From Salinicoccus sp. Bachu38 (GTDB lineage Bacteria > Bacillota > Bacilli > Staphylococcales > Salinicoccaceae), in assembly GCF_038561955.2 (NCBI RefSeq), contig NZ_CP138333.2:1550001-1614000 (forward strand): a stretch of 64,000 bases of DNA, written 5' to 3'. The position numbers and the translations under genes are program-made. The notes under the pieces are model-generated. The model had not been told where the DNA came from. It was given only the letters and a program-made list of their open reading frames with translations, and made no database searches. The stretch's first letter is position 1. Each line of letters opens with the position of its first letter. Positions 28,904 through 46,675 of the stretch are shown in pieces.

Positions 28904-29506
28904 ATGGCTCGTTTTACAGGTTCAACTTGGAAAAAGTCCCGCCGTCTCGGAATCTCACTGAGTGGCACAGGCAAAGAACTCGAACGCCGTCCGTACGCCC
29001 CTGGTGACCACGGCCCAACACAAAGAAGAAAGCTTTCCGAATACGGAATGCAGCTTCAGGAGAAGCAGAAGCTCCGTTTCATGTATGGAATTACTGAACG
29101 CCAGTTCCGTACAATCTTCGACCGTTCTGCAAAAATGAAAGGTGTTCATGGTGAAAACTTCATGATCCTTCTCGCTTCCCGTCTGGATGCAGTTGTATAC
29201 CAGCTCGGACTTGCAAGAACACGCCGTCAGGCGCGTCAGCTCGTCAACCACGGTCACGTGACTGTAGATGGCAAACGTGTGGATATCCCATCCTTCACGC
29301 TTAAAGCTGGTCAGACTATCGGCCTGCGTGAAAAATCCCGCAACCTCGATATCGTCAAAGAAGCGATCGAGTACAACAACTTCGTGCCTGAATACCTTAC
29401 ATTCGACGAAGAAAAAATGGAAGGTACTTTCGTACGTCAGCCAGAGCGTTCCGAGCTCGCTGCTGAAATCAACGAACAGCTTATCGTCGAGTACTACTCC
29501 AGATAA
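28904..29506 (+). CDS. rpsD: 30S ribosomal protein S4
   Basis: Primary 16S rRNA-binding protein that nucleates 30S assembly. The 200-residue protein shows the expected N terminus [31 protein letters not shown], and the S4 RNA-binding domain with [27 protein letters not shown] near 92-120. The zinc-binding cysteines found in some S4 proteins are absent, as usual in staphylococci. AAGGAGGAG precedes the ATG. It is a monocistronic gene with its own promoter, leader and strong terminator; the prophage remnant begins just after it. Confidence 0.98.
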
Positions 29507-29524
29507 TAGGTTGAAACAGTACCC

Positions 29525-29566
29525 AAAAGGCTCCAAATCCTCATATGAGGATTTGGAGCCTTTTTT
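29525..29566 (+). terminator. Strong terminator of rpsD
   Basis: Perfect 19-bp inverted repeat (AAAAGGCTCC..., centre CATATG) followed by TTTTTT. It marks the left limit of core sequence before the prophage remnant. Confidence 0.95.
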
Positions 29567-29705
29567 ATTATCATGTATAACCCGTCAAATCCCGTCATAT
29601 TTCTGACAAGGACGGATGTATTTTACGATTATATATAATTGGCCAGTATTTGAATCAGCAGCTTCGCTGATCTTTCCCACTGCTTCCTTTTTCAATGATT
29701 ATGTA

Positions 29706-29727
29706 TCCTCCCCACTGGGGGGAGGCA
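29706..29727. repeat. GC-rich hairpin downstream of the amidase gene
   Basis: Inverted repeat CCTCCCC / GGGGAGG with a short loop, 40 bases after the amidase stop on the minus strand. It lacks a good T-run in either direction, so it may be a weak terminator or an end-of-element structure. Nothing else was seen in 29567-29765. Confidence 0.4.
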
Positions 29728-29765
29728 ATATATTATATTCTTTTCATTCGCTACTGCTATTGATC

Positions 29766-30647
29766 CTAGCTGAACGTACCCCAATCTGTCCCGACGATGC
29801 CGGTTGCTTTGTCCCACGTTTTTACCGGGAGCGTCTTATACCTGCCGTTGACGTAGTAGCCGATCCAGACATGGCCATCCTGTCGCATGAGTTCCACATA
29901 TTCCGTGGACCATCCCGGATTGGCATACCCGCCCTCCGGCGCTGATAGGAATGGACTGCCGAAGCGTGACATGATGCGCGTGCCGCCTACAGTGAACGTG
30001 CCGCGTGCCTCGATCCATTGCGTACCATATTGGTTGGTCTTCCACTCTCCGATTGTATAAGGGGTAGCTTTTGGCGCAGGTGCGGAAATCATATTGAGTC
30101 CAAAGTACTCCGCCACACCGCGTGCTACGGCTTCACCCTGTGCTTTGAGTTTGTTTTTATCCCTCATTGCCACAATATCCTGATTTGAATCCATGAATCC
30201 TCCTTCGACGAGTATCGCAAGCTGATGGGGTTCCCGTGTTTCATGAAGGTTTGTAACTTTCACACCCCTATTCGTGATGCCCATCGCTTTTGAAACCAAT
30301 GGTGCGACAGTGGAAGCAAGCTCGTATGACTGCGGTGCATATGGTCTGACATGCACCTCTGATCCGCCACCATTGAACCATACACCCCGGTAGGCATTGT
30401 GGTGGAAAGCGATATATACATCGACCTTATTTTGGTTCGCAAAGTTGGTGCGTGTCGTCAGTGGCGTATCCACTTCGCCTATCGGGTCTGATACTTCGAT
30501 GATTTCCACATCATCATAATGTTCCATCATCTTCATAAACGCATCTGCCACTGGGTCATTAAAATACCATTCTCTTTCTCCTGCGGGTGAACGCTTGCCT
30601 GCCGTGTACTTTCCGTGTCCTCTGGAAACTCCAATTTTCAATGTCAT
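29766..30647 (-). CDS. Phage endolysin: amidase_3 plus SH3b wall-binding domain
   Basis: N-acetylmuramoyl-L-alanine amidase that would cut the peptidoglycan stem from the glycan at phage release. In 293 residues, about 1-185 are the zinc amidase with ligand regions SRGHGKYT (His11), AFHHNAY and the catalytic VEGGFMDS. After an Ala/Pro linker, residues about 212-293 form an SH3_5 domain (EARGTFTVGGTRIMSRFGSPF, QDGHVWIGY, LPVKTWDK) of the type in staphylococcal phage lysins. No signal peptide, so it depends on the holin encoded just upstream. It appears intact. It is the last gene of the lysis cassette. Confidence 0.93.
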   Translation of the reverse strand: MTLKIGVSRGHGKYTAGKRSPAGEREWYFNDPVADAFMKMMEHYDDVEIIEVSDPIGEVDTPLTTRTNFANQNKVDVYIAFHHNAYRGVWFNGGGSEVHVRPYAPQSYELASTVAPLVSKAMGITNRGVKVTNLHETREPHQLAILVEGGFMDSNQDIVAMRDKNKLKAQGEAVARGVAEYFGLNMISAPAPKATPYTIGEWKTNQYGTQWIEARGTFTVGGTRIMSRFGSPFLSAPEGGYANPGWSTEYVELMRQDGHVWIGYYVNGRYKTLPVKTWDKATGIVGTDWGTFS

Positions 30648-30700
30648 AAATAATCCTCTCCTTTTTCATAATAAAAAGACCCCTCAATTTTTGAGACGTC

Positions 30701-30952
30701 CTACTTTAAACCCTGCTTCTTCAATTCTTCTTCTTGATCGCGTGCCTTTTCAGTTACAAGAAACGTATTCTTCCAGATGCCATAAAATGCAAAAGCGAGT
30801 GGTATGCCTGTCATCAACACCTGGATCCATAGGTCGATCACTTCCTGGTTGAACCAGTCAAAATGGATTCCCATCCCTTGAAGTGCAAGGAACAAGGCAC
30901 CCAGAAACCCACCAATCATAGCCACCAGCTGTTTAACCTTATCCTGTGCCAT
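30701..30952 (-). CDS. Phage holin, phi-LC3-like
   Basis: A small membrane protein of 83 residues with two membrane helices (about 10-31 and 45-64) and a charged tail rich in Glu and Lys. Size, topology and position directly before the endolysin fit a class II holin that forms membrane lesions to release the amidase. The ATG at 30952 follows AAAGGAGGTGG; a longer reading frame from 31036 runs back through xhlA sequence and has no ribosome site. It lies 16 bases after the xhlA stop. Confidence 0.85.
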   Translation of the reverse strand: MAQDKVKQLVAMIGGFLGALFLALQGMGIHFDWFNQEVIDLWIQVLMTGIPLAFAFYGIWKNTFLVTEKARDQEEELKKQGLK

Positions 30953-30968
30953 CTCCCACCTCCTTTCA

Positions 30969-31226
30969 TCAAATGAATATGAATCCCAACACGAATATGA
31001 TGAAAGGCACGAGGATTCCTGATGCAAAGCCGGCAACCCATTTCAATGTTGTTTTCAATTCCTGCAGATTTTCTTCTGTAGCTTCTGCCATGCCGAAAGC
31101 CGCATTCGATTTATCATAGGCATCATCAGCACGTTGCCTGATCTGTTCCAATCCGCTTAATTTGCCGTCAATCTGACCGAGCCTGTCAAAAATTCTTATC
31201 GCAATATCCTTGTCTTCATTCGGCAT
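30969..31226 (-). CDS. XhlA-like phage lysis accessory protein
   Basis: An 85-residue protein with a soluble amphipathic N-terminal part (heptad-like, about 10-60) and one C-terminal membrane helix (about 64-84), the plan of haemolysin XhlA of PBSX, which helps holin and lysin act. The ATG at 31226 follows GGGAGTGG. First gene of the three-gene lysis cassette. A hairpin with a T-run (31283-31298) lies upstream, so the cassette should have its own promoter, which I could not identify. Confidence 0.8.
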   Translation of the reverse strand: MPNEDKDIAIRIFDRLGQIDGKLSGLEQIRQRADDAYDKSNAAFGMAEATEENLQELKTTLKWVAGFASGILVPFIIFVLGFIFI

Positions 31227-31282
31227 TGCACCACTCCCTTCTTCTATAGTTGGTATATACTTCCACCTCCTTCAATAGAAAA

Positions 31283-31298
31283 GGCCGACCATCCGGCC
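31283..31298 (-). terminator. Possible terminator between ArpU gene and lysis cassette
   Basis: GGCCG / CGGCC stem with a six-base loop followed on the minus strand by TTTTCTATT. If active it would separate early/late-regulator transcription from the lysis genes. Confidence 0.5.
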
Positions 31299-31352
31299 GA
31301 CCTCAGTTCCTATGATGCTGTTTCGTCCATTTCACCGGTAAAAGGATTTCAT

Positions 31353-31384
31353 ATTGTAGCAACCTATCTATAGATTCCTACAAT
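31353..31384. promoter_or_regulatory. Palindrome in the ArpU-lysis junction
   Basis: Outer arms ATTGTAG / CTACAAT with a further inner palindrome CTATCTATAG. There is no T-run, so it looks like a protein-binding site, possibly that of the ArpU-type activator. The whole 31227-31487 gap (261 bases) holds this, the hairpin at 31283 and no gene that I can support; in complete phages this is where the packaging and structural genes begin. Confidence 0.4.
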
Positions 31385-31487
31385 ACAATTGTAATGCCTC
31401 ACCAGGCTGAATGTGTCCATCTGCCGTACATGAATGGTACAGATGAAGTCCGGCAAAAGTACACATGCATTACGGTTTCTACGAAGT

Positions 31488-31940
31488 TCACGTCTCCCCT
31501 TCACCTTTCCCGTACACCTCCAAGCCCAGGAAGAAGGCGAGCCTCACTATGGCATCGTTCTTCAGTTCATAGTACTTCGTGCGGCTGATTCCGAGTTCCG
31601 TATAAAGCTCCACATCCATCATCTTCTCCTCCTGAAGATATTTGTATACGATGATATACCGCTCATTCGGCTTCAGGCACTCCACTGCTTCATGCATCTT
31701 GGCCATGGTCTCTTCACGCCTTTCCATCAGCTCCTGCCGTTTGATGTTCCTGCTGGCAGCCTGTTCGACATTGTTCAGGCTGCGGTTGGTCGTCGGTGGA
31801 ATGAAGCTGAAGGATTGTGTGACGGACGGCTCTTCCCTCAACGGGGAAAGGTGAAGCAGCTGGTGGTACTCATTAATGAATTTATGGACAGCATTGCGTG
31901 TAGCGACGGTGTCCAGGTTCTCAATTTTTATCAGTGACAT
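31488..31940 (-). CDS. ArpU/RinA-family phage late-gene activator
   Basis: A 150-residue protein resembling ArpU and RinA regulators. The C-terminal part (about 88-140) is a sigma-70 region-4-like HTH: LKPNERYIIVYKYLQEE followed by YTELGISRTKYYELKNDAIVRLA. Such proteins switch on terminase, structural and lysis genes. Here those targets are absent except for the lysis cassette 261 bases downstream. Start at 31940 has GGAGGG upstream. It would be the last gene of the early operon. Confidence 0.85.
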   Translation of the reverse strand: MSLIKIENLDTVATRNAVHKFINEYHQLLHLSPLREEPSVTQSFSFIPPTTNRSLNNVEQAASRNIKRQELMERREETMAKMHEAVECLKPNERYIIVYKYLQEEKMMDVELYTELGISRTKYYELKNDAIVRLAFFLGLEVYGKGEGET

Positions 31941-31954
31941 CTGTAACCCTCCAT

Positions 31955-32041
31955 TTATTTGTTCAACAGTGCTTTCACTTTCTCCAGAATGTTCTTATGG
32001 TCCTGCGGGTCAGAATCCATTTGCGGCTCTTGCTGATTCAC
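31955..32041 (-). CDS. Small phage ORF (28 residues)
   Basis: GTG at 32041 with GGGAGG nine bases upstream, inside the 3' end of the preceding gene, encodes a 28-residue charged, probably helical peptide (MNQQEPQMDSD at the start, ILEKVKALLNK at the end). It overlaps the preceding gene by about 30 bases in another frame. The good ribosome site and gapless packing support translation, but it is very short. Function unknown. Confidence 0.45.
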   Translation of the reverse strand: MNQQEPQMDSDPQDHKNILEKVKALLNK

Positions 32042-32363
32042 TTTCAAACGCCTCCCTGGCCTGATAATCATTCATGGTGTCCTCTTTGATATGGAATATC
32101 GATTGCTGGCAATCCAATGCCGGTTGGCCATGTCTTTTACGGTGGTATCTGGCCACCCTGTAGAGTGCACCGGGCGTATAATTTCTGATATAATCCCACA
32201 ACTGTTCAGAATCGCCAGCGATATCCAGCCTGTTGTTCTCCAGGAGATACAGCAGAACATGCCTGTACACTGTAAACAGTCTGGCTGCAGCTTCTCCCCC
32301 GGCCATTTGAGACGCTTCATCTATAGTCGTTTCAATGACTTCCAGCTGATCGATGATTCCCAT
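32010..32363 (-). CDS. Phage protein of unknown function
   Basis: A 117-residue soluble protein I do not recognise. It looks helical throughout, with an N-terminal acidic stretch (MGIIDQLEVIETTIDEAS), a middle part rich in Tyr and Arg (LYRVARYHRKRHGQ) and a low-complexity Ala/Glu tail. The start overlaps the helicase stop by one base, so it belongs to the early operon between helicase and ArpU gene, a place that often holds small recombination, resolvase or regulatory genes. Confidence 0.65.
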   Translation of the reverse strand: MGIIDQLEVIETTIDEASQMAGGEAAARLFTVYRHVLLYLLENNRLDIAGDSEQLWDYIRNYTPGALYRVARYHRKRHGQPALDCQQSIFHIKEDTMNDYQAREAFESESARAANGF

Positions 32364-33646
32364 CAGCCTGAACCCCCGGAAATCATTTGGTCGTGCCGGC
32401 GGAATGTCGTGAGTGCCGTGCCCGTCGGTCCGTCCTTGTTTTTCGCAACGATGATTTCCATACGGCTGCCTTCAGTCGAGCCTGAAGGGTCTCCCCCGTT
32501 CCGGATGTAGTAGTCCTCCCTGTGGCAGAAGAACACCATGTCTGCATCCTGTTCCAGCTGTCCGGTCTCCCTGAGGTCGCTCAGTACCGGCCGCTTATCC
32601 TGCCTGACATCGCTCGCGCGGGAGAGCTGGGACAATGCGATGATGGTCACATTCATGTCTTTCGCTATGACCTTCAGTGCCCTCGATATCTCTTCAAGTT
32701 CTGCCCGCCGGTCACGCAGCCCGTCATCTGATTGCATAAGCTGGATGTAATCGATGAAGATGATCCCCTGTCTCCCTTCCGGTATGTTATTGGCGGCGGT
32801 CCTCACTTTGTTTGGTGTTACAGTCGAATCATCCATTATTTTGATGCTCGAGGCGTGATAGCATTTGATTCCGTCAATGACTTTGTCAATCTCTTCATTG
32901 GTCATCATCCTGCTCGGTTCTTTGAATTTAGTGAGATTAACTCCTGTCAGTGTTGCCAGGATGCGCTGCGTTACACTGACCTCTGTTGTTTCTGCAGAAA
33001 AGAATATGATTTCATTCTGTTCACTCTGCATATTCTGGGCCATCTGAAGCGCCAGGGCTGTCTTGCCCATTGAAGGCCTTGCACCTACCAGAATCAATTG
33101 CTTGGGTGAGACCCCGGATATGAGCCTGTCCAGTGACACCAGGCCCGTCTTGATGATGGTTGTTGAATCTTCGTTATACAGACTGTTGAATATGGTCTTC
33201 AGTGTGTCGCGTTTCCCATCTGCCTGCACCAGGTCAACCTTCTCCAACTTGTCGATCCGGTTGCGGATATCCATGCGGCTTGCAGGGGTCGGTGCATTCA
33301 TGTACCTTTCAATGGCTTTATCAAGTTCCCGGTGTTTGTAGTGCTCCAGCACCTGCTCCTGATCGAACATGAAGCCCTTGTCGGTTGGTACTTCCATATA
33401 GGCAATCTGTTTCACGAATTCATAGCCACCATATACTTCCGGAGCCTTCACTGATTCACTGATGAGCTGCTGTTTATCAAATTCAGGATCGTTGAGCAAC
33501 CGGGCGGCCAATGCAGCATGCTTTTCATTTTCGAAGTATCCTGGTTCCAGTCTCAGCCGTCTTCTGAGATTCGGGAAATTGAGTGCTTTGGCGAGTACGG
33601 TCTTTTCGAAGTATTCCACTTCGGTAAATCGGGAGAGGTCATTCAT
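32363..33646 (-). CDS. Replicative DNA helicase, DnaB/SPP1 G40P type
   Basis: Hexameric 5'-3' helicase for phage replication. The 427-residue protein has the DnaB N-terminal helical domain (about 1-110), a linker, and the RecA-like ATPase with Walker A GARPSMGKTA near 188-197, FSAETTE, Walker B IIFIDYIQLM near 285 and the DnaB-type SQLSRASDVR and QDADMVFFCHRE motifs. The ATG at 33646 has GGGAGG nine bases upstream and overlaps the loader gene; a frame extended to 33841 is unsupported. It appears intact, about the size of host DnaC/DnaB. Confidence 0.93.
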   Translation of the reverse strand: MNDLSRFTEVEYFEKTVLAKALNFPNLRRRLRLEPGYFENEKHAALAARLLNDPEFDKQQLISESVKAPEVYGGYEFVKQIAYMEVPTDKGFMFDQEQVLEHYKHRELDKAIERYMNAPTPASRMDIRNRIDKLEKVDLVQADGKRDTLKTIFNSLYNEDSTTIIKTGLVSLDRLISGVSPKQLILVGARPSMGKTALALQMAQNMQSEQNEIIFFSAETTEVSVTQRILATLTGVNLTKFKEPSRMMTNEEIDKVIDGIKCYHASSIKIMDDSTVTPNKVRTAANNIPEGRQGIIFIDYIQLMQSDDGLRDRRAELEEISRALKVIAKDMNVTIIALSQLSRASDVRQDKRPVLSDLRETGQLEQDADMVFFCHREDYYIRNGGDPSGSTEGSRMEIIVAKNKDGPTGTALTTFRRHDQMISGGSG

Positions 33647-33983
33647 GGCCGGCACCTCCCTTGAGCATCGCCTGGAGCTTTTCCAGTTTCTCTTCACGTT
33701 CCCTCGCAAGTTTCGGGTCTGCCTTTTCACGCTCGACCTGTTCAATATCTGCCTGCATCCGGTCATCACTGTGTATTTCCCTGATATGCACGATATGTGC
33801 CAGTTTTGGTGGAAATATCTCTTTGGTCGCATAATCATCAAGTTTGGCCATCGTCATGTAATGATCGCCTTTCATGATCTGCCGCACCCATGCCTGCTTC
33901 GTTGCGATATCTGCATCATTGAGAAAGGATGGGTAATAGGATTTGATGCGACCCAGCACTTCTTTGGCTTCTTCATAATTCAT
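33639..33983 (-). CDS. Helicase loader/inhibitor, SPP1 G39P-like
   Basis: A 114-residue protein. The N-terminal half (about 1-70) is helical with YEEAKEVLGRIKSYYPSF, IATKQAWVRQIMKGDHYMTMAKLDDYATK and FPPKLAHI, the pattern of G39P-type loaders that bind and deliver the phage helicase. The C-terminal half is a highly charged, probably disordered Glu/Lys helix, which in G39P contacts the helicase. It lies between the initiator and the helicase genes, exactly as gene 39 between 38 and 40 in SPP1, and overlaps the helicase start. Confidence 0.8.
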   Translation of the reverse strand: MNYEEAKEVLGRIKSYYPSFLNDADIATKQAWVRQIMKGDHYMTMAKLDDYATKEIFPPKLAHIVHIREIHSDDRMQADIEQVEREKADPKLAREREEKLEKLQAMLKGGAGHE

Positions 33984-33991
33984 GGAACCAC

Positions 33992-34696
33992 CTACAATCC
34001 TTTCAGGAAGGCATTGCCATCTTCTGAAGCTGGTTTGCTGTCCGCTTCATACAGATTGCCTTTGACATATTCGTGATCATCCAGGAACCGCTCTTCATTC
34101 AGGAAGGTGGCTGGATATGCCTGGAACCGTTTATCCTCAGCCTTGATGCTCTTGAGATATGCGATGGTGCCGGCCCTGATGATGTCCCACTCATGATTTC
34201 TTATGGCCCTGTCGAATGCTTTGGAAGCTTTGGGCCTCGCCTTCTTCTTGCTGTAGAGCGTGTAGAAGTCTTCAAAGTGCGCATGTTCTTTATTGGTTAT
34301 ATTATTCCTGGTTATATTATTATCAGTTATGCTATTCTCTTTAACAGTTCCGTCAACGGCCGGTGCCCCGCCTGACAACGGTCCATTATCAGAATGGTCA
34401 ACAGCCGTTGCCGTCTGTGTTGACGGGTATATCTTCCTATTCGTTACGACAGTGCCATTTCTCTTATAGACGATGCTGATATACCCTCTCGATTTCAGTT
34501 TCTTCAACCGCCGGGATACGGTGACATCCGTTACGCTGAAGAGATTGGCAAAGTAGTCATTGGATGCGTAGCAGTAGCCATGCTTATTCGATAGTGCAGT
34601 GATTTCTGCATATAATATCTTTTCATCACCGGTAAGGTCGGGGTCATACCGTACCTCGGCAGTAATGAATCCAAAGTAGCTTGGATGATTCTCCAT
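33992..34696 (-). CDS. Phage replication initiator with N-terminal winged helix
   Basis: A 234-residue protein. Residues about 8-90 are a winged-helix DNA-binding domain with LTGDEKILYAEITALSN, CYASNDYFANLFSVTDVTVSRRLKKLKSRGYI. A Thr/Asn-rich linker (about 95-140) follows, then a C-terminal domain FEDFYTLYSKKKARPKASKAF common in phage replisome organisers. By position it equals SPP1 gene 38, the origin-binding protein. The AT-rich linker coding stretch (34270-34340, repeated Asn/Ile codons) may be the replication origin, as origins often lie within the initiator gene; that is inference. Confidence 0.82.
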   Translation of the reverse strand: MENHPSYFGFITAEVRYDPDLTGDEKILYAEITALSNKHGYCYASNDYFANLFSVTDVTVSRRLKKLKSRGYISIVYKRNGTVVTNRKIYPSTQTATAVDHSDNGPLSGGAPAVDGTVKENSITDNNITRNNITNKEHAHFEDFYTLYSKKKARPKASKAFDRAIRNHEWDIIRAGTIAYLKSIKAEDKRFQAYPATFLNEERFLDDHEYVKGNLYEADSKPASEDGNAFLKGL

Positions 34697-34815
34697 ATTG
34701 AATGCCTCCGATTCGTGCCTTATTTATTTTGGAATATTTATTATCGTACCGTTTTTTTCCATTGCGTTCTTTTTACCTGTGGCTCTCTTCCATTGCCTCT
34801 AACAATTTCATAAAA

Positions 34816-34829
34816 TCGCGTTTATGCGA
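34816..34829. promoter_or_regulatory. Operator copy 1, downstream of the Cro-like gene
   Basis: TCGCGTTTATGCGA, an inverted repeat TCGC-N6-GCGA, embedded in an 18-base sequence (34813-34830) repeated exactly at 35055-35072. It adjoins the stop codon of the HTH gene and lies 120 bases before the initiator gene. A repressor bound here could act on expression of the replication genes separately from the switch promoters. Confidence 0.65.
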
Positions 34830-35039
34830 CTATGATGTTAAAAAAATATCTTTTGCCTCCCCCTTCGTCAGAGGAATCACCTCTACCATCTTTTGAATAT
34901 CACCAATGGTGAATGATTCTCCACCACCCTTCATCTTTCTGTAAAATGTAGAACGATCCATTCCTATGGCTGCAGCCACTTTTTCCTGCGTCATGTTTTT
35001 CTTGGTCAGAAGTTCTTTAAGCTTTAAAGTATCCACCAT
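34830..35039 (-). CDS. Cro-like HTH protein
   Basis: A 69-residue, single-domain XRE-type DNA-binding protein. HTH residues are MTQEKVAAAIGMDRSTFYRKMKG (about 16-38). It lies divergent from the ImmR-like repressor gene and is first in the lytic-direction operon, so a Cro-type or antirepressor role is likely. AAGGAGG is seven bases before the ATG. Operator copies flank the gene on both sides. The 34697-34829 stretch after it has only tiny frames without ribosome sites. Confidence 0.8.
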   Translation of the reverse strand: MVDTLKLKELLTKKNMTQEKVAAAIGMDRSTFYRKMKGGGESFTIGDIQKMVEVIPLTKGEAKDIFLTS

Positions 35040-35057
35040 TTTTCATGCCTCCTTAAA

Positions 35058-35071
35058 TCGCGTTTATGCGA
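35058..35071. promoter_or_regulatory. Operator copy 2, in the leader of the Cro-like gene
   Basis: Identical TCGCGTTTATGCGA, immediately downstream of the -10 of the lytic-direction promoter (35085-35112) and next to the ribosome site of the Cro-like gene. Binding would block early transcription. Confidence 0.7.
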
Positions 35072-35084
35072 CCAGGTGATTAAT

Positions 35085-35112
35085 ATAGTAACACAACAAA
35101 AAGTGATGTCAA
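35085..35112 (-). promoter_or_regulatory. Lytic-direction early promoter
   Basis: Minus-strand -35 TTGACA (35107-35112), 16-base spacer, -10 TACTAT (35085-35090). It would drive the Cro-like gene and the replication operon. Confidence 0.7.
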
Positions 35113-35143
35113 TAAATTAATATCATAAATGCGACAATATTAG

Positions 35144-35157
35144 TTGCGTATTTGCAA
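35144..35157. promoter_or_regulatory. Operator copy 3, over the -35 of the repressor promoter
   Basis: TTGCGTATTTGCAA, a palindrome matching TYGCGTWTWTGCRA as defined by the other two copies. It covers the -35 TTGCGT of the repressor promoter (35144-35172). A half-site ATGCGA lies at 35129-35134. Confidence 0.6.
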
Positions 35158-35172
35158 CAACGTATATATAAT
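35144..35172 (+). promoter_or_regulatory. Repressor-maintenance promoter
   Basis: -35 TTGCGT (35144-35149), 17-base spacer, -10 TATAAT (35167-35172), about 40 bases before the ImmR-like gene. Its -35 is inside operator copy 3, which suggests autoregulation. Confidence 0.65.
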
Positions 35173-35211
35173 ACAAGTATAAATTAAGGGTATTCCGGGG
35201 AGGATAAAACC

Positions 35212-35541
35212 ATGGATGTAGGGGAAAGAATTAGACATCGACGGAAAGAGCTGGACGTTTCTGCTGATGCGCTTGCGAACTTTGTGGGGGTTTCGAGGGC
35301 AACGATCTTCAGATATGAAAGAGGCGATATAGAAAAAATGCCTGCAGTCACACTGAAAAAGATTGCTGAGAAGTTGAGAACCACCCCAGCATTCCTGATG
35401 GGATGGACTGAAGAAAAAGAAACTGAAGCAGCTCCCATTGATACCATCGCCGCCCATATTGACGATGATGTTACCGAAGAAGAGATGGATGATATTGTGA
35501 AGTATATCGAGTTTATCAAATCCCAGCATAAAGGCAAGTAA
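35212..35541 (+). CDS. ImmR-like phage repressor
   Basis: A 109-residue XRE-family repressor. HTH at about 5-60 (RIRHRRKELDVSADALANFVGVSRATIFRYERG), followed by LKKIAEKLRTTPAFLMGW, a very common pattern in Siphoviridae repressors. The C-terminal 45 residues are a short acidic helix with no S24 autocleavage domain, so it is not LexA/CI-like; it resembles ImmR of ICEBs1 and phi105 repressor, which are inactivated by a partner metalloprotease. That partner gene follows at 10 bases. GGGGAGG precedes the ATG. Confidence 0.88.
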   Translation: MDVGERIRHRRKELDVSADALANFVGVSRATIFRYERGDIEKMPAVTLKKIAEKLRTTPAFLMGWTEEKETEAAPIDTIAAHIDDDVTEEEMDDIVKYIEFIKSQHKGK

Positions 35542-35550
35542 GGTGATAAG

Positions 35551-36006
35551 GTGCAACAGCTTGAAAGATTGATTTCGCGTGTTCCGGAAGTGAATATTAC
35601 GCATGACCATCTCATGCCCAAAAGTCTGGATGGTCTCTACTACGATGATAATATACGGCTTAACGCAAACAATGACTACTACAAAAATGTAGCGGTGCTC
35701 GCTGAAGAGATCGGCCACTACTATACATCAAATGGTCATATCACAAACTATAAAGACATCAATAATATGAGGCAGGAAATCCGTGCCCGTCGCGTCGGCA
35801 TAAAACTTGTTCTGCCTCTGGAGAGTCTGATCGACTGCTATGAGAAAGGGCACTGGGGTGATCTGTATGCGATGTGTCTGCACCTGGAGATTGACAGAAG
35901 CTACTTTGAAGAAGCAATCGAGGATTATAAGCAGCAGTTTGGATCCTATGTAAAATATGACGGCTATCTCATAGAATTCGAGCCATTGAAAATAAAACGA
36001 AGCTAA
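35551..36006 (+). CDS. ImmA/IrrE-like metallopeptidase, probable anti-repressor
   Basis: A 151-residue protein of the phage ImmA/IrrE group. The motif region reads VLAEEIGHYYTS near residues 48-59, where the HExxH zinc site of classical ImmA would be; the first His is Glu here, a variant often seen in phage members. Other hallmarks are the LNANNDYYKN lead-in and RARRVGIKLVLPLESL. It is expected to cut the ImmR-like repressor after DNA damage. The GTG start at 35551 follows AAGGTGATAAG. Translation is closely coupled to the repressor gene. Catalytic competence is uncertain given the altered motif. Confidence 0.8.
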   Translation: MQQLERLISRVPEVNITHDHLMPKSLDGLYYDDNIRLNANNDYYKNVAVLAEEIGHYYTSNGHITNYKDINNMRQEIRARRVGIKLVLPLESLIDCYEKGHWGDLYAMCLHLEIDRSYFEEAIEDYKQQFGSYVKYDGYLIEFEPLKIKRS

Positions 36007-36040
36007 TCATGCATAATTCAATGGTGACTTGCTGATTATG

Positions 36041-36110
36041 GATAACCGCTCAACCGAGAGCATAGCCAGGTGCCTGAGGAAATACCACCGAGGTACAGCT
36101 CGGCATTTAC
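36041..36110 (+). ncRNA. Candidate structured leader with alternative pairings
   Basis: Three short hairpins in a row: GCTC/GAGC (36048-36061), CAGG/CCTG (36067-36076), CCGAG/CTCGG (36088-36103). The element ACCGAG occurs twice (36053-36058, 36087-36092) and both copies can pair with CTCGG, giving mutually exclusive folds. It lies between the ImmA-like gene and the exonuclease. I recognise no known riboswitch. Confidence 0.35.
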
Positions 36111-36161
36111 GCTCATATGACTGATTCAATGGAATATGATCAGCATACTTCACGATGTAAA

Positions 36162-36782
36162 ATGGAGGTAATTCATATTTTTATTCAAGAGGAAAGAAAC
36201 CTATGGCTCAATAAAAAATATACTGCCGCTCCCAGGAAGTATGATTATTTGAAAGTGGGAAAGTTGACAGATACTTTTGTAGTACTGGATTTTGAAACTA
36301 CTGGATTCCGACCTTTGGAAAATGAGATCATCCAATATGGACTGGTTGAATATGAGAATGGCAGAGTCGTAAATGAAAAGTCCCAGTATATAAAGCCTGA
36401 TTTTGGGATACCACGAAAAATCACAAGCATAACAGGAATATCCGATAGTACCGTAAGAAACTCCCCCGGAATCGAGGAAGTAATCGAAGAATTGTATTGC
36501 TCCTTAAAAGATAAAACAATAGTTGCACATAACGCCGCTTTCGATATGAAGTTTCTATTGCAAAATCTAGCTGAGGCAAATATCGAGCATGGAAGGTTCG
36601 GGGTGATTGATACCCTTTCCTTCGCACGAAGATATATCAGGAATGTTCCCAACCACAAATTGCCTACTCTTAAAAAGGTGTTTGATCTTGATAGTGGACA
36701 TTCCCACGATGCACTCAACGATTGTAGGGCGACCGGAAAACTGGCTCTATTATTATATGAAAAATCTTTAAAAGAATTTTAG
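36162..36782 (+). CDS. DnaQ-like 3'-5' exonuclease (DEDDh)
   Basis: A stand-alone exonuclease of the PolC-epsilon type. Exo I is VVLDFETTGF with metal ligands Asp and Glu, Exo II is AHNAAFDMKFL, and Exo III is HDALNDCRATGKLA, which supplies the general-base His and last Asp. The start is uncertain. ATG at 36162 and ATG at 36117 have poor ribosome sites, while the only good site (AAGAGGAAAG) is followed by an ATG at 36203 whose frame stops after three codons, so a small frameshift near the start is possible. It might be prophage cargo or a host gene; base use is more AT-rich than the core genes. Confidence 0.82.
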   Translation: MEVIHIFIQEERNLWLNKKYTAAPRKYDYLKVGKLTDTFVVLDFETTGFRPLENEIIQYGLVEYENGRVVNEKSQYIKPDFGIPRKITSITGISDSTVRNSPGIEEVIEELYCSLKDKTIVAHNAAFDMKFLLQNLAEANIEHGRFGVIDTLSFARRYIRNVPNHKLPTLKKVFDLDSGHSHDALNDCRATGKLALLLYEKSLKEF

Positions 36783-36811
36783 AAACCTACATTACTGATC
36801 AGACATATATC

Positions 36812-36845
36812 ATGGCACAGCTATAAAAGCTGTGCCATTTTTGAT
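36812..36845 (+). terminator. Terminator of the exonuclease gene
   Basis: Perfect 11-bp stem ATGGCACAGCT / AGCTGTGCCAT with a 5-base loop, followed by TTTTTGATCTTTT. Confidence 0.85.
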
Positions 36846-36965
36846 CTTTTCCCAGATAATTAGGACTGATGGCATTACTTTCTCAGGGTAATCATAATTA
36901 ATTCACAACTATTATCAAATACTTATGAACGGGTCCTGATAAAATGTATAGAGGGAGGTGTCATC

Positions 36966-38048
36966 ATGAATACATTGATCCAATCAATGATAAACTGGAT
37001 AGAAGAGAATCTGGCAGGAGAATTCAACTTGGATGATCTTGCGGAATATATTGGCTATTCCCCTTACTACTGTTCGTTCAAATTCCATCAGATTACAGGT
37101 GTTACAATCAAAAGCTATGTAAAGAGCAGAAGATTATATCTCTCCACCAAAGATTTGGAACAGCAGAATAAAATAATTGATATTGCGATCAAGTATAACT
37201 ATTCATCCCAAGAGTCCTACAGCAGGGCCTTTAAAAATCTATACGGCATGACGCCTGGGCGATTCAAATCTGAAAATCTACCTATACAATCAATATATAA
37301 GATTGTGTTGGACAGGAGTAAGGAGATGAGTGATTTGGTTTATCCGGAAAATATCAATATGGGTGCTTTGCCGAGGATACCGGGTGATTGTGATGATACA
37401 GAAATTATGAACATACTCAACGGTCAGCATATGTACGATGAATTCAGCAGAAAAGAAATGATGGAAAAATCGGATTATATCCCTTTCAATGAAGCAATGT
37501 GTGTGAATATCGCCAGTTCTCCCCTTTTTGATGACCAGTTCATCCGTTTGAGAGCAGAGGGACACAATGTTCCGGTTGAGGACTATATGAAGAAAGTCAT
37601 CGAAAACATCAATAAAATCAGACAGAAAAAATATAGAGTAATCGTCCTTTGGTTCGGGGAGGATATGTTCTGTCAGATGAACTTGTTGACACTTTTGGCA
37701 TATCTCGAACAGATTGGCTATAGAGGTGAAGTGTACCTGAACAGTTTCAGGGATGACGAGTTTAAAGTCGATCAATTTAAAATTGAATTGGGCAACTATT
37801 ACAGGGTGTACGAAAAACTGCTGATCAGGAATGAATTCCCGGAAGATACTCTGTCCCCTGCCCTGCATCAATCTAGTCGCCTTTATTTGGAAATGTTGCA
37901 GGAAGACAATATCGTCACGTCTTATATCAGCAGAAACGATCATTTGACTAACAAGGAACTCGTCAAAGTTCTGATACACCGTTTTCCATCACTTGGATAT
38001 GGGGACTCTCAGTACATGCAATTGATCAGCAACTGGCGTAATCGATAA
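36966..38048 (+). CDS. AraC-family regulator with DUF1835-like C-terminal domain
   Basis: A 360-residue regulator with the DNA-binding part first, the reverse of most AraC proteins. Residues about 8-105 hold the two HTH motifs (FNLDDLAEYIGYSPYYCSFKF and IIDIAIKYNYSSQESYSRAFK) ending with YGMTPGRFK. The remaining 250 residues include VIVLWFGEDMFCQMNLLTLL and LRGEVYLN-like strands. This resembles DUF1835, found alone in many Firmicutes; the resemblance is by pattern only. GGGAGGTG precedes the ATG. AT-rich codon use compared with core genes hints at transfer. Target unknown; ktrA is 170 bases downstream. Confidence 0.82.
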   Translation: MNTLIQSMINWIEENLAGEFNLDDLAEYIGYSPYYCSFKFHQITGVTIKSYVKSRRLYLSTKDLEQQNKIIDIAIKYNYSSQESYSRAFKNLYGMTPGRFKSENLPIQSIYKIVLDRSKEMSDLVYPENINMGALPRIPGDCDDTEIMNILNGQHMYDEFSRKEMMEKSDYIPFNEAMCVNIASSPLFDDQFIRLRAEGHNVPVEDYMKKVIENINKIRQKKYRVIVLWFGEDMFCQMNLLTLLAYLEQIGYRGEVYLNSFRDDEFKVDQFKIELGNYYRVYEKLLIRNEFPEDTLSPALHQSSRLYLEMLQEDNIVTSYISRNDHLTNKELVKVLIHRFPSLGYGDSQYMQLISNWRNR

Positions 38049-38171: not shown

Positions 38172-38219
38172 AGATGACTGTCGAATAGGGAAACCAATAT
38201 GAGAACTGGAGGAGAAGGC

Positions 38220-38876
38220 ATGGAAAAATCTTTTGCGGTGTTCGGCCTGGGACGATTTGGCGGCACACTTGTTAAAGCATTCCACGAGAGTGGCATAGAG
38301 GTCATCGCTGTGGATAGGGACGAGGACAAGGTCAAGGCATATTCCGACCTGGCAACTTATGCGGTGCGCATTTCCCAGATTGATGAAACGACTTTGAATG
38401 ATATGGGGGTCAGAAATGTCAATCATGCTTTTGTTTCCTTCGGCGACGACCTTCAGGCGAGTATATTGACCTCTCTCCTTCTAAAGGATATGGGGGTCCC
38501 TAAAGTTTGGACGAAATCCCAGAATGCCCATCATACCAAAGTTCTGGAGAAAATCGGGGTGGACCGGGTAATACAGCCTTCCCACGATGTGGCTAAGCGG
38601 ATTGCAAAGCACATCGTTTCCGACAAGATGATCGACTTCATAGAACTGTCGGATCAGTACAGTATTGTTGAAATCGAGGCGACTCCCAAGATTGATGGCA
38701 TCACCCTTGAAAAACTGAATCTGCGGGTCAGATATGGCTGTACGATCGTCGGCATCCAGAGGGGCGCGGAATTCAATATCTCTCCCCCAATAGATGAAGT
38801 CATCCATGAAGGGGACACATTAATCATCATCGGCCGGAATGATGATATAGACCGTTTCGAAAAAGAAGGCATGTAG
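38220..38876 (+). CDS. ktrA: K+ uptake gating subunit KtrA/TrkA type
   Basis: Cytoplasmic RCK protein that forms an octameric ring gating the KtrB channel. The 218-residue protein has the RCK_N Rossmann loop FAVFGLGRFGGTL at 5-17 with the acidic VIAVDRDEDKV, and an RCK_C domain (about 135-218, with KLNLRVRYGCTIVGI and EGDTLIIIGR), the site of c-di-AMP control in relatives. Start at 38220 follows GGAGGAG. No KtrB gene is adjacent, as often in staphylococci where subunits are scattered. K+ uptake is central to osmotic adaptation. Confidence 0.93.
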   Translation: MEKSFAVFGLGRFGGTLVKAFHESGIEVIAVDRDEDKVKAYSDLATYAVRISQIDETTLNDMGVRNVNHAFVSFGDDLQASILTSLLLKDMGVPKVWTKSQNAHHTKVLEKIGVDRVIQPSHDVAKRIAKHIVSDKMIDFIELSDQYSIVEIEATPKIDGITLEKLNLRVRYGCTIVGIQRGAEFNISPPIDEVIHEGDTLIIIGRNDDIDRFEKEGM

Positions 38877-45757: not shown

Positions 45758-46675
45758 ATTTTGTTCCAGAATCTCACTCAGCCAGCTGAACATGAGGTTC
45801 GTCCATTGTGATGCGCGTTCGTCCACCATGCCGGTCACTCCTGTCGCCAGGCTCAGGCCATGGTTCCCACTCTTGAATGTATGGAGTTCCCAGGGTATCT
45901 GGTTCGTCTCCAACGCTTTCGCAAAATCGAGTGCGTTCTGCACGAATACGAGCTTGTCTTCGACGGTATGCCAGATGAAAGTCGGTGGTGTATCTTTGGA
46001 GACATGAGCCTTGAGGTCAGCCCGTTCGATGGTTTCATCCTCGATATTGTGGCCGAATACCATTCTGGAGGCCGTCGACATGTACCTCGGCTCCCCGATG
46101 CCCCGTTCCTCGGCAATATCCCTGTTCAGCATATAGTCCAGGATCGGATAGGCCAGCACCTGGAAATTCGGCCGGTACCACCTTGACTCCTGAGCTGTGA
46201 GTTCACTGAGCCATGCCGAATTCCAGTGTACGCCAAGACTCGCTGCCAGATGGCCGCCCGCAGAGAATCCGACTGTACCGATCTGATCCGGATTCACATT
46301 GAACTCATGGCAGTTTTCCCGGATGAAGGTAATCGTCTGTGCCAGTTCCACCAGAGGTCCCGGAAACTCGGAGCCGAGCACCTCGTCCTCCCCGACCATG
46401 GAGGCGATCTGATACAGTTCGTCCCTGTTCGTCCGTCTGTCCTCCCTTCTCATCGCCGTGCCGATGGTCGAATACCTGAGTATGAACACATGGTATCCTT
46501 TCGCCAGAAACTCGTACCCTACAGGTTCCGCCTCCCTTTCGGATACATACATGTAGCTTCCGCCCGGACAGATGACAACCGCCGGTCTCCCCTCCTTCTC
46601 ATACACTGCACTTTCACCAAGCATCATCGTCACTTCGGCATGTTTGTCACCAATATAAAAACTTTGCAGATTCAT
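45755..46675 (-). CDS. Alpha/beta hydrolase, acetyl-esterase-like
   Basis: A 306-residue serine hydrolase of the BD-FAE/xylan acetylesterase-like group. The oxyanion region is VICPGGSYMYVSEREAEP, the nucleophile elbow is GFSAGGHLA (Ser near 140), and the catalytic Asp and His are likely in HTVEDKLVFVQ and SGNHGLSLA. No signal peptide, so it acts on internal acyl esters, perhaps deacetylating imported sugars. It is followed upstream (same strand) by a GNAT gene 17 bases away, so the two may be cotranscribed with the phosphoesterase. Confidence 0.85.
   Translation of the reverse strand: MNLQSFYIGDKHAEVTMMLGESAVYEKEGRPAVVICPGGSYMYVSEREAEPVGYEFLAKGYHVFILRYSTIGTAMRREDRRTNRDELYQIASMVGEDEVLGSEFPGPLVELAQTITFIRENCHEFNVNPDQIGTVGFSAGGHLAASLGVHWNSAWLSELTAQESRWYRPNFQVLAYPILDYMLNRDIAEERGIGEPRYMSTASRMVFGHNIEDETIERADLKAHVSKDTPPTFIWHTVEDKLVFVQNALDFAKALETNQIPWELHTFKSGNHGLSLATGVTGMVDERASQWTNLMFSWLSEILEQN

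Follow-up and report, generated by a model that had tools for sequence, protein, structure and literature searches.

A phage-type element between rpsD and ktrA

The window analysed here is a 64-kb stretch of the genome of Salinicoccus sp. Bachu38 (64,000 nucleotides of contig NZ_CP138333.2), to which positions refer unless stated otherwise. Between rpsD and a ktrA-like gene, at 29566-36006, it contains a phage-type element of 6.4 kb with 11 intact phage-type genes. These genes, recognised by profile searches, encode a CI-type repressor, an ImmA-type protease, a Cro-like regulator, a replication initiator, a helicase loader, a DnaB-like helicase, the small protein orf117, an ArpU-type activator, an XhlA-type protein, a holin and an amidase. 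The immA and cI genes lie on the + strand and the remaining nine, from cro to the amidase gene, on the - strand. The same gene set is found in two further hosts and, to judge from the substitution patterns described below, is under purifying selection. The original prediction had described a prophage reduced to switch, replication and lysis modules; its coordinates and gene list hold, with the gene content confirmed by profile searches and the edges by comparison with empty sites and with Salinicoccus luteus. The genes and their flanks are the following:

28904-29506, + strand: rpsD, the left flank of the element
29766-30647, - strand: endolysin of 293 amino acids, an N-acetylmuramoyl-L-alanine amidase with an SH3b domain (Amidase_3 4.5e-25, SH3_5 8.3e-13)
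30701-30952, - strand: holin of the SPP1 type (Holin_SPP1 1.1e-10 on the frame 30701-30979; start chosen by eye)
30969-31226, - strand: XhlA-type haemolysin/holin partner (PF10779 1.4e-08; phrog_689)
31488-31940, - strand: ArpU-type late transcription activator (phrog_248 8.2e-29)
32010-32363, - strand: orf117, a small helical protein with phage homologues, encoded 3' of dnaB as in related phages
32363-33646, - strand: DnaB-like replicative helicase (DnaB_C 7.5e-74; start codon set from the alignment)
33639-33983, - strand: helicase loader (phrog_2289 7.1e-16)
33992-34696, - strand: replication initiator (HTH_36, phrog_270)
34830-35039, - strand: Cro-like regulator (profile searches), the least conserved gene
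35212-35541, + strand: CI/ImmR/CapH-like repressor of 109 amino acids (HTH_3 6.9e-09)
35551-36006, + strand: ImmA/CapP-type metalloprotease, the anti-repressor (Peptidase_M78 1.3e-05)
38199-38876, + strand: ktrA-like gene, the other flank

The repressor and anti-repressor that had been proposed are both present, the latter being an ImmA-type protease. By profile, initiator, loader and DnaB appear to form an autonomous replication module, and the holin and endolysin are paired as in lysis cassettes used by hosts (type 10 secretion-like). The ATG taken by eye as the start of the holin, at 30952, is located 3' of a ribosome-binding site. With regard to orf117, no Pfam or PHROG family matched, and a structure search with its AlphaFold model (mean pLDDT 78) returned no fold match at E<=0.001.

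The gene order agrees with that of a prophage of S. carnicancri and of IMG/VR relatives, with essential phage functions missing. Profile searches of the window, together with queries of its whole 64 kb with nine phage proteins named by eye (E<=1e-3), revealed no functional integrase gene and none for packaging, head or tail, including those that would characterise a gene transfer agent. The S. carnicancri prophage supplied six of the queries (terminase, a portal piece, capsid, tail tape, XerD-like protein and serine integrase) and a prophage in a third host the other three (terminase, portal and tyrosine integrase). Eight of the nine gave no match, and the tyrosine integrase alone matched, as a broken remnant at 36029-36140. 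The proposed lack of integrase, terminase, portal, head and tail is thus confirmed for working genes, the integrase surviving as a broken 110-bp relic. Furthermore, three terminase queries (PF03354 and two proteins) had no match in this genome and two terminase proteins none in S. luteus, with S. carnicancri as the positive control in one query; the terminase of the third host's prophage, which had no positive control, matched none of the 12 genomes compared in the genus. No packaging or capsid-interference gene was recognised among the 11 genes by profile searches, in which orf117 had no match.

Carriers, shared reduction and selection

The comparison covered 12 Salinicoccus genomes, one per species and this one included. 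The element was found at rpsD in two of them, the present genome and S. luteus DSM 17002, an environmental type strain in which all 11 genes stand next to rpsD with their order unchanged. A third carrier is represented by IMG/VR contig 2648501105_000002, the first 6.1 kb of which are the same 11-gene unit at 84% DNA identity. Each of the 11 genes gives one unbroken match in S. luteus and in the third host, which puts the finding beyond chance and agrees with the earlier view that the retained frames are not decayed. Conservation of the exact gene set, which had been suggested as a check, therefore extends to three hosts, that is, to three species with one genome each. Two close relatives in the genus (G007 and G009) have an empty site, with rpsD proteins 99-100% identical to that of the window and an rpsD-ktrA gap of ~165-170 bp with nothing between. 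Their collinearity with the window extends to 29563-29565, which is the left edge of the element, and its right edge is the immA stop at 36006, exactly where the match between the window and S. luteus ends.

The three elements can be aligned along their whole length. Gaps do not exceed 10 columns within genes and 54 in inner spacers, and are larger only at the rpsD end. They also share a breakpoint after arpU:

31445-31492, - strand: deletion junction, with the stub of a XerD-like gene, which in full phages comes next after arpU (by-eye alignment)

At this junction ~18 bases, corresponding to the first ~6 codons of the XerD-like gene, are alike in the three elements and in two phages. Beyond the stub, homology to phages is lost in all three elements (by eye), and the match between window and phage stops at 31470. 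The continuous alignment and the common breakpoint point to one history of reduction and not three.

Between the window and S. luteus, dS is 0.25-0.58 for the element and 0.29-0.55 for the flanking genes ezrA, gaf, ktrA, pepA and yetF, with a lower value of 0.08 for rpsD. Since the element matches its flanks in dS at the same site, the simplest reading is that it was gained and reduced before the two species split. The recent large internal deletion put forward in the original prediction is refuted, as S. luteus has the reduced state at this very site, with flank-like dS and low dN/dS, and the third host has it with the shared breakpoint.

In the comparison with S. luteus, dN/dS is 0.03 for immA and cI, 0.05 for xhlA, 0.08 for the amidase, 0.09 for arpU, 0.12 for the loader, 0.13 for the holin, 0.15 for DnaB, 0.17 for the initiator, 0.26 for orf117 and 0.48 for cro. 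Across the three elements it ranges over 0.01-0.03 for cI, 0.02-0.03 for immA and 0.02-0.23 for the group of dnaB, initiator, loader, arpU, xhlA, holin and amidase genes; the comparison of S. luteus with the third host gave no ratio for cro. For the three element pairs, the pooled values are 0.13 (window and S. luteus), 0.11 and 0.15, and the pooled value against the IMG/VR relative is 0.08 with saturated dS. By a rough count, ~90 nonsense changes would be expected without selection over the 5,529 coding bases at a dS of 0.38. None is seen in 10 of the 11 genes, and orf117 varies only in its end position, stopping after 117, 99 and 110 codons in the three elements.

These values bear on the proposal of simple decay caught early, in which the element would be a neutral remnant left unbroken by chance. 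Other prophage pieces in the genus are decaying and cro and orf117 are weakly constrained, as this proposal would have it. Phage pieces not under selection do break in this clade, however, as seen for the integrase relic and for an amidase relic at 1.68 Mb in this genome and also in G007, and the pooled dN/dS and missing nonsense changes stand against neutrality for a reduced state shared at a dS of about 0.4. Neutral decay is highly improbable and was rejected on the basis of the shared breakpoint, dS and dN/dS.

Beyond these carriers, a strong match to the ArpU family (E below 1e-25) is present in three of 33 genomes of the family, namely this one, S. luteus and S. carnicancri. A DnaB scan of named genomes yielded S. 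luteus and S. carnicancri only (two of 105 pattern matches confirmed), and a DnaB query in IMG/VR returned distant helicases only, at seven loci. An order-wide search of 157 genomes yielded 20 matches to ArpU at E<=1e-10, of which 17 fall outside Salinicoccus. None of the 12 non-Salinicoccus loci that were examined had XhlA, holin or amidase by tblastn (E<=1e-3) with window proteins, a search that could miss divergent lysis genes and in which one contig was only 8.4 kb; TerL matched at seven of the 12. In Salinicoccus roseus, one prophage region of 22.7 kb and further incomplete ones have been reported, and the available passages of that genome paper describe no comparable unit (PMC10642018).

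A second reduced element occurs elsewhere in the present genome, at about 2,594,000-2,604,000, where an integrase, a repressor, a phrog_2289 loader and a phrog_36 regulator were identified by profile. Its DnaB is 40% identical to that of the window, and initiator-like and Abi-like proteins were named by eye. Terminase queries had no match in the genome, and this second element is PICI-like (phage-inducible chromosomal island).

Presumed parent phage and attachment site

S. carnicancri carries an apparently complete prophage, its genes named by eye from translations and position. The early part consists of a serine integrase, immA, cI, cro, early genes, initiator, loader, DnaB and a small open reading frame. 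Further genes follow, and then ArpU, the XerD-like protein, terminase, head, tail, an XhlA-like protein, holin and endolysin. Identity to the window is 67% for cI, 62% for immA, 73% for the initiator and 59% for DnaB. As a comparison, the original prediction had proposed a complete phage whose early and lysis genes are those of the element, and two candidates answer this in part. The S. carnicancri prophage shares the early genes, and of the amidase only the C-terminal domain. IMG/VR contig 3300047449_000070 is the closer relative for the replication and lysis genes (initiator 80%, DnaB 78%, ArpU 83%, amidase 87%), but carries a different cI, and immA found no match in it. The reduced element of the third host is directly adjoined by an apparently complete prophage (by eye; 6180-44910 of contig 2648501105_000002).

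Two features at the ends of the window's element relate to how its parent may have been integrated:

29489-29565, + strand: 3' end of rpsD with its terminator, the left edge and presumed attB of the parent prophage
36029-36141, + strand: tyrosine integrase relic (3' end of the gene), a two-piece remnant with a broken frame beyond immA

The relic has 71.8% DNA identity over 110 bp to the integrase gene adjoining the third host's element (E 7e-11 in a DNA search of two short stretches; 2e-5 for the protein pieces against the whole window), and no such match was present in the S. luteus stretch. The relic is oriented as would be expected if the element were what remains of an older prophage inserted like that of the third host in both site and direction, and a broken tyrosine integrase piece beyond immA therefore indicates that the parent was a prophage at the 3' end of rpsD. 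The serine integrase of the S. carnicancri phage was also considered as the lost integrase and was rejected, giving only chance-level matches beyond immA where the tyrosine integrase gave the relic.

The third host's element ends in an 82-bp copy (87.8%) of the rpsD 3' end, like window 29492-29572, and the tyrosine integrase gene starts ~30 bp past this copy. On account of this copy between element and integrase, the rpsD 3' end appears to be a site of phage attachment. The IMG/VR record of the third host does not contain the remainder of rpsD, which would lie on the far side of the adjacent prophage. No far-side copy of the attachment site was found in the window, where rpsD itself is the one match within 3 mismatches, or in S. 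luteus, with one match per locus within 4 mismatches.

These observations also bear on the satellite put forward in the original prediction. On such a reading the element would be replicated and packaged with the help of another phage, would enter recipients by homologous recombination at rpsD as a transduced passenger, and would be selected for its spread. The element does keep its own replication genes and switch, related amidases (88%) occur in two IMG/VR records of the third host, one of them within the prophage adjoining the element, and an ImmR/ImmA switch has been described for SaPI3 (PMC10233336). It lacks, however, an intact integrase, a far-side attachment copy in the window or S. 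luteus and any recognised packaging or capsid-remodelling gene, the terminase queries found nothing here or in S. luteus, and its dS between the window and S. luteus equals that of the flanks. Phage satellites rarely keep a lysis cassette, which was likewise counted against this reading, and we regard it as improbable. Of the selected minimal units originally suggested, a lysis device fits the anatomy of the element, and a satellite is less likely, for want of an intact integrase, a far attachment copy and packaging genes.

Between the element and ktrA, at 36117-38048, there are genes for a DEDDh exonuclease and an AraC-type regulator in DNA of low G+C that is absent in S. luteus. The exonuclease has an RNase_T match and is also the PADLOC candidate PDC-S48, and a homologue (58%) of the regulator adjoins rpsD in another Salinicoccus genome (G003, L065 3744-4823).

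From switch to lysis: control sites, proposed working and possible role

The HTH repressor gene adjoins the M78 protease gene, as in the ImmR/ImmA and CapH/CapP switches. CI is 97-98% identical across the three elements and has no match to the S24 autocleavage domain in the profile search; its best PADLOC model is capH (1.4e-09), among 16 HTH-type models matched, and ImmA has no PADLOC match. Cro is 59-76% identical between the elements, while the adjoining CI is 97-98% identical. In ImmR/ImmA and CapH/CapP pairs the protease is reported to be turned on by DNA damage or single-stranded DNA (PMC10233336), and by analogy the element is probably released by DNA damage through the action of ImmA on the repressor. 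A 15-bp operator-like site flanks cro on both sides, and two further features separate arpU from the lysis genes:

34816-34831, no strand: operator-like site, copy 1, between cro and the initiator gene (15/16 columns identical in the three elements)
35058-35072, no strand: operator-like site, copy 2, between cro and cI (15/15 columns identical in the three elements)
31356-31440, - strand: 85-bp conserved block between arpU and xhlA (80/85 columns identical in the three elements)
31281-31304, - strand: hairpin resembling a terminator that separates the late control block from xhlA (18/23 columns identical over 31283-31304 in the three elements)

The 85-bp block is about as conserved as the operator-like sites. 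Its 80 identical columns of 85 compare with 339 of 527 fourfold sites (64%, seven genes) identical across the three elements, with a binomial value of 1e-10 that is indicative only, the block having been chosen after the alignment was viewed. The spacer 31350-31475 matches two of the 12 genus genomes, this one and S. luteus, and a 34-base core of it has one exact IMG/VR match, the third host. The block is a candidate ArpU-dependent late promoter or operator that would feed the lysis genes directly. A 46-amino-acid open frame (31364-31504, - strand) crosses the block; about 24 residues at its C-terminal end hardly differ in the third host or, by eye, in S. luteus, and the frame has no family match and no clear ribosome-binding site by eye. 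Within the initiator gene, largely conserved A+T-rich direct repeats at 34294-34323 may represent an origin of replication. Solitary broken relics of a related amidase lie elsewhere, at 1682783-1683573 of this genome, in two frames (74-77% identical), and at 46125-46417 of G007, where stops are present, beside an Abi-like gene (by eye).

The conservation of the switch raises the question of whether the element is kept mainly for immunity, with CI and ImmA guarding against phages of the same immunity and the replication and lysis genes as passengers. The most constrained genes are indeed cI and immA, and the operator-like sites are conserved. Passengers would not be expected to have the low dN/dS of the replication, arpU and lysis genes, however, or to lack any broken frame in three hosts, and the block 5' of the lysis genes matches the operator-like sites in conservation. 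We consider this explanation quite unlikely.

The explanation that fits best, and that we hold to be rather probable, is that the element is a vertically inherited, domesticated and immobile prophage remnant, in which the cascade from early genes to lysis has been kept as a working unit. The shared 11 genes, common breakpoint, intact frames, low dN/dS, empty sites and conserved block all argue for it. A temperate phage with a tyrosine integrase would once have occupied the 3' end of rpsD and, before the carrier lineages split, would have lost the integrase, DNA between cro and the initiator gene and between orf117 and arpU, and everything from a point just past arpU up to xhlA, which comprised packaging, head and tail; the remainder would have been inherited vertically under purifying selection. 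The CI-type repressor would keep the unit silent. On DNA damage or in the presence of single-stranded DNA, the ImmA protease would become active and cut CI, which would free the early operon for the production of Cro, initiator, loader and DnaB. As the element cannot excise from the chromosome, the locus would replicate in place. The growing template and ArpU would then fire the late promoter just downstream of arpU, which would feed XhlA, holin and amidase directly and not an extended series of virion genes; arpU and the endolysin match are ~25 kb apart in the S. carnicancri prophage. The cell would lyse, freeing DNA and vesicles and no particles. Retention of the replication proteins for template amplification before lysis is our best guess.

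Several observations weigh against the domesticated remnant. The carriers are only three, with one genome each, the third-host contig begins at the end of immA, and 10 of the 12 genus genomes lack the element, which is therefore dispensable. Where HEXXH would be expected, ImmA has EEIGH in all three elements, although the S. carnicancri prophage also departs from the motif, with EELGH, and the capH match of CI is at the HTH level only. The dS against the third host is uneven (amidase 0.34, arpU 0.53, cI 0.77, immA 0.96, xhlA 1.45), so that some exchange or recombination with phages is likely, and pooled dN/dS, slightly higher between elements than in the comparison with the IMG/VR relative (saturated dS), may reflect a somewhat relaxed constraint, with cro and orf117 the weakly constrained genes. 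Finally, the hairpin stands between the presumed late promoter and xhlA; it may damp leakage or be a leftover.

With regard to what the host may gain, the candidates are the release of DNA or vesicles, the death of damaged cells and sacrifice during phage attack. A tentative and somewhat doubtful proposal is a replicate-then-burst suicide unit, in which a cell struck by a phage or by DNA damage would multiply and shed its own DNA and be dead before an infecting phage reached maturity, since lysis directly follows the late activator. In the related form of a sacrificial anti-phage device, phage attack or the DNA damage it causes would free the element from its repressor and the shortened cascade would lyse the cell before particles are made. 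The loss of virion genes, which puts lysis right after the late activator, is in keeping with this, as are the control of cell-killing defence by CapH/CapP pairs (PMC10233336) and the report of a Vibrio cholerae phage whose lysis inhibition is disrupted by a defensive satellite (PMC7182436). In a PADLOC scan of 10 element proteins (loader and cro left out), however, the lysis proteins, ArpU, orf117, initiator and ImmA had no defence match, and DnaB matched two ATPase-type models weakly; we judge the device to be unlikely.

Domesticated defective prophages were reportedly described by Bobay and colleagues in 2014, and the element resembles such prophages in general in being phage-derived, immobile, vertically inherited and under purifying selection. 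In the incomplete prophages studied by Khan et al. 2020 (PMC7744054), losses are reported to fall preferentially on replication, packaging and release functions, while genes for tail fibres, transposases and integrases are over-represented; the element is the reverse, with integrase and tail gone and replication and release kept. Phage lysis cassettes are reused in the explosive lysis of Pseudomonas (PMC4834629), in vesicle formation in Bacillus and Lactococcus (PMC5589764, PMC8966010) and in exoprotein release in Yersinia (PMC10101115). In these systems a holin and an endolysin have a purpose other than particle release. The cassette of the element is tied to a full replication trio and to a switch made of repressor and anti-repressor.

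As in ImmR/ImmA, CapH/CapP and DdrO/IrrE (PMC10233336, PMC10904395), an HTH repressor stands next to an M78 metalloprotease; the element differs from these in its predicted output of replication and lysis and in a Glu in place of the first His of HEXXH. The run-off replication associated with the Bartonella gene transfer agent similarly keeps a phage-derived origin in the chromosome, but is associated with particles, for which the element has no genes (PMC2697382, PMC3610622). In the literature, surveyed mostly at title level, no conserved replication-plus-lysis unit of this kind was recognised. Phage-inducible chromosomal islands also have a repressor-controlled replication module of phage kind; unlike them, the element has no intact integrase, pair of attachment sites or packaging-interference genes and does have a lysis cassette.

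Domesticated prophages and reused lysis cassettes are already known. A set that is reported to be preferentially lost from incomplete prophages is here intact in three hosts under measurable selection, and the intact state of the retained parts suggests that the remnant now serves its hosts, with DNA release, death on damage and defence as candidate reasons to pay for it. If the reading as a suicide unit is true, the element would be a self-contained altruistic device derived from phage timing, in which replication proteins are selected in a lineage unable to make phage. At 6.4 kb and removable as one block, it is a compact natural system for asking why a bacterium keeps phage replication and lysis without the phage.

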